Shown: piece by piece, positions 16,367 through 23,249 of the stretch
Numbering within the stretch: position 1 is the stretch's first letter
Layout of the letters: each line of letters opens with the position of its first letter
Assembly: GCA_022704885.1 (NCBI GenBank)
Contig: JAKJFO010000042.1
Location: 299 to 23,903, forward strand
DNA length: 23,605 bases
Source: Candidatus Rifleibacteriota bacterium
Lineage (GTDB): Bacteria > Riflebacteria > Ozemobacteria > Ozemobacterales > Ozemobacteraceae
Direction: 5' to 3'
The notes under the pieces: model-generated
The model's input: only the letters and a program-made list of their open reading frames with translations
Database searches by the model: none
Told to the model about the DNA's origin: nothing
Made by a program: the position numbers and the translations under genes

Positions 16367-17806
16367 TCAGTAGTCGCGCGGCTTGTACTGCTCGAATGAT
16401 TTTTTATCGAAGGCCCGACGGTAGGCTTCCTGCGGCGAAATCTTGCGTTGTTTGACGAGATCGAGCAGCGACTGGTCCATGGTCTGCATACCAGCCTGTT
16501 TGCTGGTCTGCATGATCGAGGGAAGCTGGAAGGTTTTGTTGTCGCGGATCAGATTGGCGACAGCCGGCGTGTTGATCAAAATTTCGAGCGCCACAGCACG
16601 ACTCATGCCATCGACAGTCGGAATCAGCTGCTGTGCGATGATTCCCTGCAGGGCATCGGCCAGCTGGGTGCGAATCTGATCCTGCTGGTGAGCAGGAAAG
16701 ACGTCGACGATACGATCGACCGACTGTGCCGCCGACGGAGTATGCAACGTGGCAAAAACCAGGTGGCCGGTTTCGGCTGCGGTAACGGCCAGCGAAATAG
16801 TTTCGTAATCGCGCATTTCGCCAACCAGAATGATGTCGGGGTCTTCGCGCAGTGCCGAACGCAACGCATTGGCGAAAGACTTGGTATTCGGCCCGATTTC
16901 GCGCTGATTAACAATACATGACTTGTGCCGGTGAACGAACTCGATCGGATCTTCGATGGTCAGAATGTGATCCTGACGCTCGTTGTTGACCTGGTCGACC
17001 ATAGCGGCGAGAGTAGTCGATTTACCTGAGCCGGTCGGCCCGGTAACCAGAATAAGACCTTTGTTGCGACGCGCCAGATCGCCGAGAACCGGCGGCAGCT
17101 TGAGGTCCTGCAAGGTTTTGATTTCGGTCGGAATGACCCTGAAAACAGCACCAATTCCAAGTCTCGATAAAAAGATATTGCAGCGGTAACGCGCCACTCT
17201 CTCGAGTTCATAAGAAATGTCGAGCTCGAGGTCGCGCTCGAAACGCTCGCGCTGATCGTTGTTGAGAAACTGATAGACCAGACGCCGGGTTTCTTTGGCA
17301 GTGAGCACCGGCAGGTCGGTAGGCCAGAGTTTACCCTGCAGACGCAGCATCGGCGGCGAACCAACAGTAAGATGAAGGTCTGACCCCTGTTTGTCGACAA
17401 TCAGCCTGAGAAGATCATCGATGATAACTTCATCTTCGCCTTCCTGGCCAGAAGCCGCTGCTGACTGGGCGGGACGATTGACCGTACCGCCGGCGGGCGA
17501 CATCGGAATACCGGTTGAACGCGCCGGCTGAGCAGGTTGTGCTGGACGCGCCGGCGACACCGGCCCAGGTTGTGGCGGTCGGGCTGCCGGAGCTCCGGGG
17601 GCTGCTGGCGCTGCTGGCCGCGGTGGCTGAGCGGCAGCTGGAGGTGCAGCAGGTCGCACCGGAGCTTGACCGGGAGCGACCGGTCTTGGAGGCGGAGCTG
17701 CCGGGCGGGCCGGTGCATCGGCGCCCTGGGGCGAACGGGGCTTGTTTTCATCGTCAGGCGTATCTGAATTGCCGCCGAAAAGCTTACCAAAAAAGTTGTC
17801 ACTCAT
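16367..17806 (-). CDS. pilT: Type IV pilus retraction ATPase PilT with long Pro/Ala-rich N-terminal tail
   Basis: 479 residues against the usual ~350. The PilT core (from about residue 128) is intact: Walker A GPTGSGKST (256-264, K262), TIEDPIEFVH, ALREDPDIILVGEMRD (Walker B with catalytic Glu), the His-box TGHLVFATLHT, and the C-terminal retraction motif region INTPAVANLIRD. It should hydrolyse ATP to disassemble the pilus at the inner membrane. The first ~125 residues are a short helix (FFGKLFGG) and a disordered Pro/Ala/Arg-rich stretch that PilT normally lacks. The ATG follows the upstream gene's TAA by two bases, so translation is coupled. Confidence 0.93.
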   Translation of the reverse strand: MSDNFFGKLFGGNSDTPDDENKPRSPQGADAPARPAAPPPRPVAPGQAPVRPAAPPAAAQPPRPAAPAAPGAPAARPPQPGPVSPARPAQPAQPARSTGIPMSPAGGTVNRPAQSAAASGQEGEDEVIIDDLLRLIVDKQGSDLHLTVGSPPMLRLQGKLWPTDLPVLTAKETRRLVYQFLNNDQRERFERDLELDISYELERVARYRCNIFLSRLGIGAVFRVIPTEIKTLQDLKLPPVLGDLARRNKGLILVTGPTGSGKSTTLAAMVDQVNNERQDHILTIEDPIEFVHRHKSCIVNQREIGPNTKSFANALRSALREDPDIILVGEMRDYETISLAVTAAETGHLVFATLHTPSAAQSVDRIVDVFPAHQQDQIRTQLADALQGIIAQQLIPTVDGMSRAVALEILINTPAVANLIRDNKTFQLPSIMQTSKQAGMQTMDQSLLDLVKQRKISPQEAYRRAFDKKSFEQYKPRDY

Positions 17807-17808
17807 TA

Positions 17809-19467
17809 TTAAAACAGCCTCATGAATTCATCGGCGCTGGTTTCACCCTTCAACACCATTGCCAGAGCTTTTTCTTCAAGACTGGCAATGCCCTGCTTGC
17901 GGGCAAAGCTGTTGAAATCCTGGTAATTCTGGCGATTGATTATCATCTGGCGCAAAGTCGGGCTGGCCGGGAGATATTCGGTAATCAGAGTCCGGCCGAT
18001 GTATCCGGTATTATTGCAGCCTTCACAGCCTTTCGCAGCAAAAATTCTGCTGCCTTTGCTTTCGTCAGGTATAAGCTCAGCCATTGCCTCGGGAATTTCC
18101 GCTTCTTTTCTGCATTTCGGACAAAGCAGACGAACCAGTCTCTGACAGACAAATCCGCATAGTGATGAAGCAAGTACAACCGGGTCAGCGCCAGTTTCAA
18201 GGAGCTTGACAATGCTGCTCGGCGCATCATGTGCAAGATATGACGTAAGCACGGTTTTGCCACCAAGTCCAGCAAAAGCGACTTCTTCGGCCAGCTCTTT
18301 AGAGCCGAGATGATCGAGATAAATAACATCGGCATCGAGCAGCAGCGCCAGCTTCAAGCCAGCCAGTGAGCTGCTGATTCCACCGCTGCCGACCTGAATC
18401 TGAGTTACCTGCGGCAGAGTAGCGACGACCGGATCTTCGATTGTTATCAGCTTGCGGGTTTCGGCATCATAACTGCTCATTATGCAATATTGTGTGGTAG
18501 TGCGGCCTGATTCACGGGGACCGCTGACGTATAAAACGCCATAAGTCGTTTTGACTGAAGAGACAAGCTCATCGATCGCTGCCTTGCCACTTTTTCCAAG
18601 CTGTTCGAATATGCTGGTGAAGTCACTGAGTTTCAAAATGACCATCTCGCCATTGACTGTCGGGAAAAAGATTGACTGTATGTTTATCTGCCGGCTCGAA
18701 ACGGTTACGCGAAAATGCCCGACGACAACGCCTTCACGTTGCATATCCTTCTCGGGAACCTGCGACAGTTTTTTGAGGCGGCTGATGATCTCATGGTGAA
18801 GCTTGACCGGCACTTCGACTTTACGCGAAAGCACGTGGTTGGCTCGAAACCTGATTATCACGCCCTTATCTGAGGGTTCGAAATGAATGCGGTTGACTTT
18901 GTTGATGATTGCCTGGCCAAGAATGTAGTTGATAACTTTCTCCGGGCCTTCCATGCCTTTGGGAATGCCGCGTTCGATGCTCTGTTTCTCGGTCGAATCG
19001 ATATCACCGGTCGACACTTTCTGCTGTACATCGACCGGGCCATAAACAGCCGAGAATGTCTGCTCAAAATCAAAAGCAGTACAGATTGAAGCCGAAACCT
19101 CAACGCCGAATTTTCCCTCAAGATACTCTATCGGGCGCGAATCGAGCGGATCGACCATGCATACGCTGAGCTGATTTCCCGCCTTATAAAGCGGCATCAG
19201 TTTGTGATCGCGGGCAAATTCAGGGGCAACCATTTTGACGACTTCGTTATCGACTATATCGGGATTGAGATGAATGAACGAAATATTCAACTGGTTGCCC
19301 AGCGCCCAGATAATGTCGTCTTCAGTCACCAGACCCATCTCTGACAGAGCTTCGCCAAGCTTGATCCCCTTGTCGCGCTGAAAAGTGAGAGCCTGCTTGA
19401 GCTGCTCATCTGTTATAAGGTTACAATCTATAAGTATGTCGCCCAGACGTTTTTTCTGCGTATTCAT
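17809..19467 (-). CDS. PilB/GspE-family protein with degenerate ATPase site
   Basis: 552 residues. An MshEN/GspE_N domain (about residues 5-145; RLGDILIDCNLITDEQL) precedes a secretion-ATPase fold. The overall fold markers are kept (TIEDPV, QIQV, LASSLCGFVCQRLVRLLC, and a CPKC...CEGC zinc finger with NNTGYIGR), but the catalytic residues are changed. The Walker A reads GPRESGRTT with Arg322 in place of Lys. Walker B reads DADVIYLDHLGS with His386 where the catalytic Glu should be. The His-box reads TVLTSYLAHD rather than GHLVLSTLHTND. It is therefore likely unable to hydrolyse ATP and may be a structural or regulatory partner. It is directly upstream of pilT. No clear ribosome binding site precedes the ATG. 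Confidence 0.9.
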   Translation of the reverse strand: MNTQKKRLGDILIDCNLITDEQLKQALTFQRDKGIKLGEALSEMGLVTEDDIIWALGNQLNISFIHLNPDIVDNEVVKMVAPEFARDHKLMPLYKAGNQLSVCMVDPLDSRPIEYLEGKFGVEVSASICTAFDFEQTFSAVYGPVDVQQKVSTGDIDSTEKQSIERGIPKGMEGPEKVINYILGQAIINKVNRIHFEPSDKGVIIRFRANHVLSRKVEVPVKLHHEIISRLKKLSQVPEKDMQREGVVVGHFRVTVSSRQINIQSIFFPTVNGEMVILKLSDFTSIFEQLGKSGKAAIDELVSSVKTTYGVLYVSGPRESGRTTTQYCIMSSYDAETRKLITIEDPVVATLPQVTQIQVGSGGISSSLAGLKLALLLDADVIYLDHLGSKELAEEVAFAGLGGKTVLTSYLAHDAPSSIVKLLETGADPVVLASSLCGFVCQRLVRLLCPKCRKEAEIPEAMAELIPDESKGSRIFAAKGCEGCNNTGYIGRTLITEYLPASPTLRQMIINRQNYQDFNSFARKQGIASLEEKALAMVLKGETSADEFMRLF

Positions 19468-19637: not shown

Positions 19638-21065
19638 ATGAGCGCACAACCGAGACAAGACTCCGGCACCGGCATTATGAGCAGGCTTTTGCTCTGGTCG
19701 GCATTTTCTCTTCTTATCGTTGCGGCAGCACGTGGAGACCTGTGGCTGGAAGAAGTCTGGAGCCTCGGATTTGCGCTGGATTCGGCCTCGGCTTCCGACA
19801 TTTTCTGCCGTTTCAAGCACGACAACAACCATGTGCTCAATACCCTTTATCTTTATCTGGTAAGCCATAGCGAAGATTTTCTGGTTTTTCGAACCATGTC
19901 GATTCTATCAGGATTGGCGAGCCTCTGGCTGCTGACCTGGATTGCCGGGCGCGAACATAGAAGCACCGAAGCGACACTGGTACTGATAATGGCCGGCAGC
20001 TCTTACCCTCTGTTGCTCTACTTCTCTGAAGCCCGCGGCTACGCGCCGGCAATTTTTTTGAGCCTGACAGCTTATGCAGCAAATCAGAAATTTCAGGCAA
20101 GCCTTTCGAAAGCCGCCATGTTCATATTCTGGCTCGCTTCTTTCGCCGGCATCATGATGCATGCAGCCTTCAGCATCATTTCTCTTGGCCTTATCATCAG
20201 CGATACTCTGCCAACCCGGGCCAATGCCGGCAGATCACAAAAGTCTCGACTTTTCGCGCTGTTGCCGCATCTGCCGATAATAGCCTTCTTTGCCTGGTGG
20301 TATAACTTCTATCTCGCCAACATGGACGCCGGCGGCGGGCAGCTCTTTTCTACCAGTCTGGTTCTCGGGCAAATCAGCACTTACCTGCTCGGACTGCCTG
20401 ATTCAGAACACAGCTACATCATGTCTTCGATCATATTTTTATTACTGCTTGCAGCTGGCCTTCGCCGACTCTATCTGAACTCTCAAAACTGGCTGACCTA
20501 TGCAGGAATACTTCTCATTGCCCCGCTGACAATGCTGATTATCAGCCGACCACATTTTCTACATTTTCGTTATTTTTTGATACTTTTTCCGTTCTTCTAT
20601 CTGCTGCTGGCCTGTCTGATCGCTGATTCCTGGCGACGCCGGCCCGAGCTGAGATTTATGCTGGTTCTGATGATGGCTGCCATGTTGATCGGCCACTGGC
20701 AGCGCAACTTTTCACTGCTCATTTACGGCCGCGGCAATTATTCAGCTGCAATATCACATATTATGGCGAACTGCCGGGAGTTTCCGGTTTTTGTCGGCAG
20801 CGACCACGATTTCAGAAATCCCGCGCTGATCGAGTATTATACCCGCCGCGGAAAAGCGCATGGCGCGCTGCAATACGTAATGGCCAGAGACTGGTCACAA
20901 ACCCCGCCCGATTATTTTATCGGACACAGCCGCACCCCAGTCGCAAACCCGGTTTTATTGCACAATCTTGCTGGCATCGGCGAGTTCGAGCTTGCGGCAT
21001 ACTGGCCTTCAGCACCGGTTTCCGGCTTCAGCTGGTATCTCTACCGCCGCAAGCCGCAAAAATAG
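19638..21065 (+). CDS. Multi-pass membrane protein, probable GT-C-type glycosyltransferase
   Basis: 475 residues with about ten hydrophobic membrane helices. The first outer loop has acidic residues right after helix 1 (GDLWLEEVWS), then HDNNHVLNTLYLYL and a YFSEARGYAPAIF motif after helix 3-4. This order of loop Asp/Glu, a His-rich loop and an EARxY motif is typical of GT-C lipid-linked sugar transferases (PMT/ArnT-like), which transfer sugars from polyprenyl-phosphate donors outside the inner membrane. The C-terminal ~110 residues form a soluble domain. No strong ribosome binding site is seen; ATG 19638 is used, with 19677 as an alternative. It stands alone between a divergent pilB-like gene and a shared terminator. 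Acceptor and donor are unknown. Confidence 0.75.
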   Translation: MSAQPRQDSGTGIMSRLLLWSAFSLLIVAAARGDLWLEEVWSLGFALDSASASDIFCRFKHDNNHVLNTLYLYLVSHSEDFLVFRTMSILSGLASLWLLTWIAGREHRSTEATLVLIMAGSSYPLLLYFSEARGYAPAIFLSLTAYAANQKFQASLSKAAMFIFWLASFAGIMMHAAFSIISLGLIISDTLPTRANAGRSQKSRLFALLPHLPIIAFFAWWYNFYLANMDAGGGQLFSTSLVLGQISTYLLGLPDSEHSYIMSSIIFLLLLAAGLRRLYLNSQNWLTYAGILLIAPLTMLIISRPHFLHFRYFLILFPFFYLLLACLIADSWRRRPELRFMLVLMMAAMLIGHWQRNFSLLIYGRGNYSAAISHIMANCREFPVFVGSDHDFRNPALIEYYTRRGKAHGALQYVMARDWSQTPPDYFIGHSRTPVANPVLLHNLAGIGEFELAAYWPSAPVSGFSWYLYRRKPQK

Positions 21066-21196: not shown

Positions 21197-21481
21197 TTAC
21201 TTTTTCTTGTTGTTGATCATTTCGCGCAGTTCTTTGCCTGGCACGAATTTGGCTACGTTACAAGCCGGAATTTTGATCGGCTTTTTGGTCTGGGGGTTGA
21301 TGCCGGTTCTGGCTTTTCTGGCGTTAACCTTGAAAGAGCCGAAGCCTACAAGACGTACGTCGTCTTTTTTGCGGAGCGCCTTCTTGATGATAGAAAGCGT
21401 GGCATCAAGAGCCTGAGTAGCCTGGGTCTGGGTCATGTTGGTGGTTTTTGCGATTTCGCGAACGAGTTCGATCTTTTTCAC
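21197..21481 (-). CDS. hup: DNA-binding protein HU
   Basis: 94 residues, the normal size; a histone-like protein that bends and compacts DNA as a dimer. The N-terminal dimerisation helices (MKKIELVREIAKTTNMTQ) and the family signature GFGSFKVNARKARTGINPQT are clear, followed by the DNA-binding arm with KIPACNVAKFVPGK. The start is a GTG at 21481, nine bases after a full AGGAGG; no ATG lies in the right place. A near-consensus promoter precedes it. HU and IHF subunits are close in sequence; the single copy in the window and RKARTGINPQT fit HU best. Confidence 0.95.
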   Translation of the reverse strand: MKKIELVREIAKTTNMTQTQATQALDATLSIIKKALRKKDDVRLVGFGSFKVNARKARTGINPQTKKPIKIPACNVAKFVPGKELREMINNKKK

Positions 21482-23164: not shown

Positions 23165-23249
23165 GCCGGAATGGCGGAATTGGCAGACGCACGGGACTCA
23201 AAATCCCGCGCCCCTTAAAGGCGTGTCGGTTCGACCCCGACTTCCGGCA
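23165..23249 (+). tRNA. tRNA-Leu (anticodon CAA)
   Basis: An 85-nt type II tRNA. The acceptor stem GCCGGAA (23165-23171) pairs with TTCCGGC (23242-23248), with discriminator A at 23249. The anticodon stem CGGGA/TCCCG encloses loop CTCAAAA with anticodon CAA at 23199-23201, which reads UUG. A long variable arm follows, and the T-arm is GTCGG-TTCGACC-CCGAC (23225-23241). CCA is not encoded. It is followed by an integrase gene. Confidence 0.96.

Follow-up and report, generated by a model that had tools for sequence, protein, structure and literature searches.

A PilB-type protein with a lost catalytic site is inherited together with PilT in Riflebacteria and may be a cyclic di-GMP-sensing adaptor of the retraction motor

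How bacteria choose between extension and retraction of type IV pili is open, and the best-known action of cyclic di-GMP (c-di-GMP) is on extension. In Vibrio cholerae, binding of c-di-GMP to MshE sets extension versus retraction of the mannose-sensitive haemagglutinin (MSHA) pili (PMC7096442). PilT and PilU represent the case of a motor that depends on another one, which may be inactive, as its platform; ATPase-dead Walker variants of PilT still support PilU-driven retraction (passages of PMC6762196). For PilB of Myxococcus, which has an MshEN motif, a function separable from ATP hydrolysis was described (PMC5544727). We analysed a stretch of 23,605 nucleotides of a Candidatus Rifleibacteriota bacterium (GCA_022704885.1, contig JAKJFO010000042.1, positions 299 to 23,903), in the following called the window. 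It encodes a PilB/GspE-like protein without its catalytic residues, named pseudo-PilB here, directly upstream of an intact PilT. With moderate confidence, pseudo-PilB is read as an adaptor that serves its own PilT, senses c-di-GMP and lacks ATPase activity.

Compared with the extension ATPases PilB, GspE and MshE, pseudo-PilB has lost the Walker A lysine, the Walker B glutamate, the His box, the Asp-box glutamate and the N2D arginines, and it is paired with a PilT. The MshEN domain is carried by a working motor in the receptors V. cholerae MshE and Thermus PilF (GSPII-B), whereas here it is located on a dead one. As for PilT and PilU, two proteins of the T2SSE fold are encoded together. In contrast to that pair, the dead partner is derived from PilB, carries a c-di-GMP motif and became inactive by evolution instead of mutagenesis. 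In Myxococcus one PilB protein does both, while Riflebacteria possess canonical motors and, apart from these, a dead copy. A natural PilB pseudo-ATPase was not found in the papers listed by our literature searches, which covered few subscription journals. Passages of a review on PilB and its cofactors (PMC11656802) selected by relevant terms contained no natural dead PilB, and those from the literature on archaeal type IV pili, cyanobacteria and Leptospira held no precedent. An MshEN adaptor of PilT was not found either in literature on MshEN, PilT, retraction and c-di-GMP, judged by titles and the openings of abstracts of the papers listed. The pilus systems of Riflebacteria appear to be little described.

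The pseudo-pilB reading frame (17809..19467, minus strand, as are all features of the two genes given below) starts with ATG and codes for 552 amino acids (aa), arranged as MshEN domain, N2D, degenerate T2SSE ATPase domain and zinc finger. Pfam matched T2SSE at aa 176-550 (192.9 bits) and MshEN at aa 61-144; together with homology matches, the MshEN domain covers aa 5-144 (19036..19455). By alignment the tetracysteine zinc finger (aa 449-484; 18016..18123) is kept with C449, C452, C481 and C484. The T2SSE fold with N-terminal MshEN domain and zinc finger, retained as the first-pass annotation had stated, marks the protein as one of the PilB/GspE fold. Its scores are below the NCBIfam equivalog cut-offs of TIGR02538 (259.6, cut-off 675.65) and TIGR02533 (265.7, cut-off 630.25), both scored without a canonical PilB of Riflebacteria as control. 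The nearest named homologs belong to Candidatus Riflebacteria (P0002 with 93% identity and Candidatus Rifleibacterium amylolyticum, L001, with 92%).

The loss of the catalytic set was examined with the best 120 of 286 matches of a protein search. These comprised 93 rows of the pseudo-PilB clade with 46-100% identity to the window protein and 27 canonical PilB/GspE rows with 29-35%. Ten catalytic positions were counted in 92 clade rows (P0093 was dropped): seven are changed in two rows, eight in eight, nine in 41 and all ten in 41, so that every row has lost 7-10 of them. None is changed in any of the 27 canonical rows. The altered Walker A motif GPRESGRT (aa 316-323; 18499..18522) has Arg322 in place of the lysine, and arginine occurs here in 87 of the 93 clade rows. 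In the altered Walker B motif DADVIYLDH (aa 378-386; 18310..18336) the catalytic glutamate is replaced by His386. Across the clade 12 residue types occur at this position; glutamate is found in P0083 alone out of 92 aligned rows, and that row has arginine in Walker A. The altered His box (aa 402-414, with K404, L411 and A412; 18226..18264) reads KTVLTSYLA instead of the canonical HLVLSTLHT, and the histidine is present in no clade row. These three changes, first noted in the window sequence, recur in the related proteins of the clade. The losses go further and include the Asp-box Glu348 as well as two N2D arginines (18715..18735), at aa 245 (glutamate in the window protein, not conserved in the clade) and aa 251 (histidine in the window protein and nearly throughout the clade, in 91 rows). 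We take these to be Arg fingers, presumably serving the site of the neighbouring subunit.

Six of the 93 clade rows have lysine in Walker A. P0093 is a fragment that does not align there, and in the five others 7 to 9 of the ten catalytic positions are changed. The first-pass annotation had named close homologs with intact Walker motifs as evidence against a dead ATPase; the catalytic set is complete in none of the clade rows. In a tree of 60 proteins, including 37 of the 93 clade rows, the clade is monophyletic with a support of 100/100 and a stem length of 2.69. This tree contains the lysine-bearing rows P0056, P0072, P0077 and P0091, but not P0070. The four are nested at no fewer than three distinct points, with P0072 and P0077 as neighbours. 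Hence, arginine looks ancestral in the clade and lysine secondary, and lysine as the ancestral state was rejected.

Pseudo-PilB is under purifying selection to about the same extent as PilT. For ten close pairs, omega (the ratio of nonsynonymous to synonymous rates, dN/dS) was 0.036-0.066 for pseudo-PilB and 0.035-0.067 for the partner PilT; the neighbouring BipA had lower values (0.013-0.038). Pairs that include L003, which is more distant, reached 0.095 and 0.097; two of its whole-gene pairs were saturated and yielded no dS, and many dS values exceeded 1. No internal stops were detected in the 21 genome copies of pseudo-pilB. A recent mutation, a pseudogene or a sequencing error is ruled out by these copies, the 93 clade rows and the low omega; judged by this record, the catalytic-residue loss is genuine, neither chance nor error. 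Pseudo-PilB combines loss of catalytic residues across orthologs with purifying selection, as is characteristic of a pseudoenzyme, and presumably does not hydrolyze ATP.

For the comparison of conservation 86 of the 93 clade rows were used, after removal of seven short or fragmentary ones. Twelve positions are fixed or nearly fixed in both the clade and the canonical rows, with different residues (in the clade H251, N262, Q264, Y313, E319, R322, K339, L377, D385, G402, K404 and A412). Judged by motif position, most of them are located in or beside the old nucleotide site. The positions of E386, R376, R388 and R245 vary freely in the clade. Variability of the P-loop amounts to 0.38 bits in the clade and 0.23 bits in the canonical rows, compared with 1.29 bits for the ATPase domain of the clade as a whole. 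From this pattern of residues, the former catalytic site is rebuilt and not decaying. A salt-bridge network or a changed ligand might now occupy the old ATP site.

The sensor-like part of the protein is better preserved. The N-terminal bundle of the MshEN domain (aa 1-60) is the least variable domain with 0.62 bits, compared with the 1.29 bits of the ATPase domain. The model NF053729 for c-di-GMP-type motifs matched aa 7-59 with 61.4 bits (cut-off 38). Two tandem 24-residue motifs, aa 7-30 and aa 36-59 with a 5-residue spacer (19291..19449), agree with the published MshEN arrangement of two such motifs and spacer (passages of PMC5013675); for the extended first motif position the consensus was taken from passages of PMC11731258. 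The conserved c-di-GMP contact residues are kept in 87-91 of 90-91 aligned clade rows. Proteins with GGDEF domain were present in all 39 genomes of the phylum examined. Pseudo-PilB probably binds c-di-GMP through its MshEN domain.

The partner PilT (16367..17806; 479 aa) scored 492.2 bits with TIGR01420 (cut-off 319.1), and its ATG at 17806 is placed two bases past the stop codon of pseudo-pilB. Its Walker A motif, Walker B motif and His box are intact, in agreement with the first-pass annotation, as they are in all 113 related PilT rows (P0222 and P0224, with other architectures, were left out). The motor core (aa 129-473; 16388..17422) matched PilT of Geobacter (5zfq) with 401.9 bits over aa 131-473. 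It is preceded by a tether rich in proline and alanine (aa 13-128; 17423..17770), recognized by composition over related rows; residues 16-100 consist of 32% proline and 17% alanine over 83 rows. At the very N-terminus the motif DNFFGKLFGG is found (aa 3-12; 17771..17800). FFGxL[FL] occurs in 74 of 82 PilT rows of at least 440 aa, and close variants occur in seven of the other eight. The natural reading of FFGKLFGG is that of a candidate docking peptide on a flexible tether.

Within the 39 genomes, an ortholog of pseudo-PilB was detected in 21 (533-1150 bits; next best 290). The long PilT was detected in 19 (586-932 bits; next best 454), all of which belong to these 21; a 20th genome, G012, has a PilT cut at the contig end. 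Counting G012, the two genes are direct neighbours in 19 of the 21. In the other two, G024 and G025, pseudo-pilB is located at a contig end, and G024 has the long PilT at the end of another contig. Co-inheritance of pseudo-pilB and the long pilT as a unit is shown by this distribution across genomes.

Canonical motors are present besides this pair, a point that the first-pass annotation had proposed to check. The motifs of 23 among the 27 T2SSE matches of the reference genome G001 were inspected, and 21 of these have both the Walker A lysine and the Walker B glutamate. The remaining two are pseudo-PilB itself and a protein at locus L122 with the lysine and an altered Walker B. An intact pair of PilB and PilT was identified in G001 at L114. 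By position, a canonical PilB-PilT pair exists in 19 of the 21 ortholog-bearing genomes among the matches listed, with motifs read in G001 only; it was not among the matches listed for G005 and G014.

Genome G008 is among those of the 39 without an ortholog of pseudo-PilB. On its contig C101 a protein of 200 aa, consisting of MshEN and a short C-terminal part, is encoded with a one-base overlap to the start of a PilT of 462 aa, which has an N-terminal extension of its own. The 21 best matches of this MshEN-only protein outside G008 are the 21 pseudo-PilBs (98-114 bits; other MshEN proteins at most 82). The tree of MshEN domains joins it with those of pseudo-PilB at 100/98; a row marked as others in this tree repeats the G008 protein, taken from a locus that overlaps. 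It passes NF053729 likewise. Its predicted fold is poor (mean predicted local distance difference test score, pLDDT, of 50.5 with 4 sequences). Three further proteins (P0241-P0243) resemble it and share the short C-terminal part (aa 150-200 of the protein at L107:815-1417, plus strand), which is conserved and gave no Pfam match.

Loss of the engine, retention of a sensor-like domain and co-inheritance with PilT suggest that pseudo-PilB regulates that motor rather than working itself. Accounts as a motor adaptor, a c-di-GMP-sensing scaffold or a regulator of PilT had been considered from the sequence of the window, and a c-di-GMP-sensing scaffold or adaptor of PilT fits best, because the N-terminal MshEN bundle is the best conserved part and because one genome keeps an MshEN-only protein before a PilT. 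A PilB-type extension ATPase would have been converted to a catalytically dead regulator dedicated to the adjoining PilT. The MshEN domain would bind c-di-GMP, and the bound state would probably be relayed through the PilB-like body to PilT, thereby timing its engagement with the pilus base and its retraction. PilT would probably be anchored through the FFGKLFGG peptide conserved at its N-terminus, which sits on the long flexible tether. By analogy with the MSHA pili of V. cholerae, low c-di-GMP would favour retraction. We infer absence of ATP hydrolysis, binding of c-di-GMP, ring formation, contact to PilT and the direction of control. If the reading is true, the module always retains sensor and PilT and can do without the dead motor body; a dead motor relative tied to PilT would provide a separate control point for retraction. 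The role of a motor ring that does not turn becomes testable with natural proteins.

In a more tentative version, which we consider possible and rather doubtful, the dead PilB ring would be a clutch controlled by c-di-GMP. It would dock to the base of the pilus as a motor does, without being able to turn, hold PilT by the tethered peptide, and release or engage retraction; some lineages would have, or would have been trimmed to, a free MshEN sensor and PilT. Such a clutch would be a natural pseudo-motor in the type IV pilus machine, with the c-di-GMP input on retraction and not on extension.

Several observations weigh against an adaptor that senses c-di-GMP. The turn glycine of motif I is replaced by asparagine in 85 of 90 aligned clade rows (the canonical rows have glycine in 12 of 27 and asparagine in 11 of 27). 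In motif II, Leu17 is changed to isoleucine in the clade, position 7 is often not hydrophobic (serine in the window protein), and the turn glycine is kept in only 60 of 91 clade rows. With 0.38 bits the P-loop varies little, and so the old site of pseudo-PilB may bind nucleotide. The P-loop of Galpha proteins reads GxGESGKS; GPRESGRT resembles it, and binding of nucleotide without hydrolysis may occur. On the side of PilT, 31 of the 113 rows have a called length below 440 aa; among them the N-terminal motif was found in P0197 only. Late-called starts are the likely explanation; the upstream frame was checked in a set of 11 genome loci. Gene adjacency fits any shared function, not just direct contact. 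So far one genome and the three further proteins exemplify the MshEN-only state, and 17 genomes beyond the 39 gave no other case near its score (best 77 bits). A position of the G008 PilT as sister to the long PilT clade was neither shown nor rejected (approximately unbiased test, p-AU 0.49), and the FFGKLFGG motif was not evident in this PilT by eye.

The main rival explanation, which we regard as unlikely, is a signalling role: the dead protein would mimic nucleotide-free PilB and report the state of the pilus or of c-di-GMP elsewhere, for example to exopolysaccharide (EPS) production, PilT being merely co-regulated. Walker A is changed in nearly all clade members, and in Myxococcus an ATPase-dead Walker A variant of PilB signals for EPS without pili, with the apo form proposed as the active one (PMC5544727). 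The strict linkage to one PilT and the MshEN-only gene in the same place in G008, however, point to PilT, and the recurring neighbours besides PilT are an HU region, a FecR-type gene and BipA (genes for EPS were not looked for). Somewhat less probable still is a structural role, in which pseudo-PilB would dock PilT to the pilus base as a scaffold and its MshEN domain would serve protein contacts only, independently of c-di-GMP. MshEN-type domains also bind PilZ, as in the PilB-PilZ complex of Xanthomonas (PDB 7lkm was among the matches), and the turn glycines of the motif are changed. In contrast, there is hardly any variation at the c-di-GMP contact positions, and pseudo-PilB as well as the MshEN-only protein score above the cut-off of the curated model NF053729.

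Improbable is also a poison or tuning subunit in mixed hexamers with canonical PilB. Pseudo-PilB lost its cis residues and also the N2D arginines, presumed to act on the site of the neighbour; the gene is linked with a pilT instead of pilB, and an ATPase body is missing from the G008 protein. An active ATPase of unusual chemistry, for which the conserved P-loop could be adduced and since some Walker motifs tolerate arginine, is very improbable: the Asp box, the Walker B glutamate, the His box and the N2D arginines are all changed, and the glutamate position varies freely. The motif losses as such would also fit a decaying relic or a sequencing artefact, and nothing further does; with no internal stops in 21 copies, an omega of close pairs of 0.036-0.066 and 93 clade rows, this explanation is practically negligible. 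The reading as a c-di-GMP-sensing adaptor of PilT is thus preferred.

Regarding the surroundings, window genes were traced in the 19 loci with pseudo-pilB. The HU region recurs in 17, the FecR-type gene in 14, and BipA is located directly downstream in six. The gene of the HU-family DNA-binding protein (21197-21481, minus strand; named by eye) belongs to the region upstream of pseudo-pilB, and a membrane protein gene (19638-21065, plus strand) lies between the two in three of the 19 loci. A conserved small upstream protein, g21096, was rejected as the wrong strand of the HU gene. A conserved RNA upstream was not found with Rfam at gathering scores, which gave only a tRNA gene in the whole window (23165-23249, plus strand; 54.1 bits).

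Two further unusual motor proteins were observed. In G029, and also in G030 and G031, a PilT of 915 aa (L108:7864-10611, plus strand) has a long N-terminal region that resembles HEAT-type repeats by eye; it shares 58% identity with the core of the window PilT. The genomes G001-G007 contain 18-30 T2SSE ATPase matches each, a number that appears high for a single pilus system. One of those in G001 is the protein at L122 (2621-4153, minus strand; contig C10), in which a PilC/GspF-like half (T2SSF, aa 10-96) is fused to a PilB-like ATPase. Of the motifs of this ATPase, Walker A is intact, in contrast to the changed Asp box, Walker B and His box. By score, similar fusions perhaps exist in G002 (C42), G004 (C125) and G007 (C260). 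The two genes following the fusion gene at L122 look by eye like those of a sigma factor and an anti-sigma factor.
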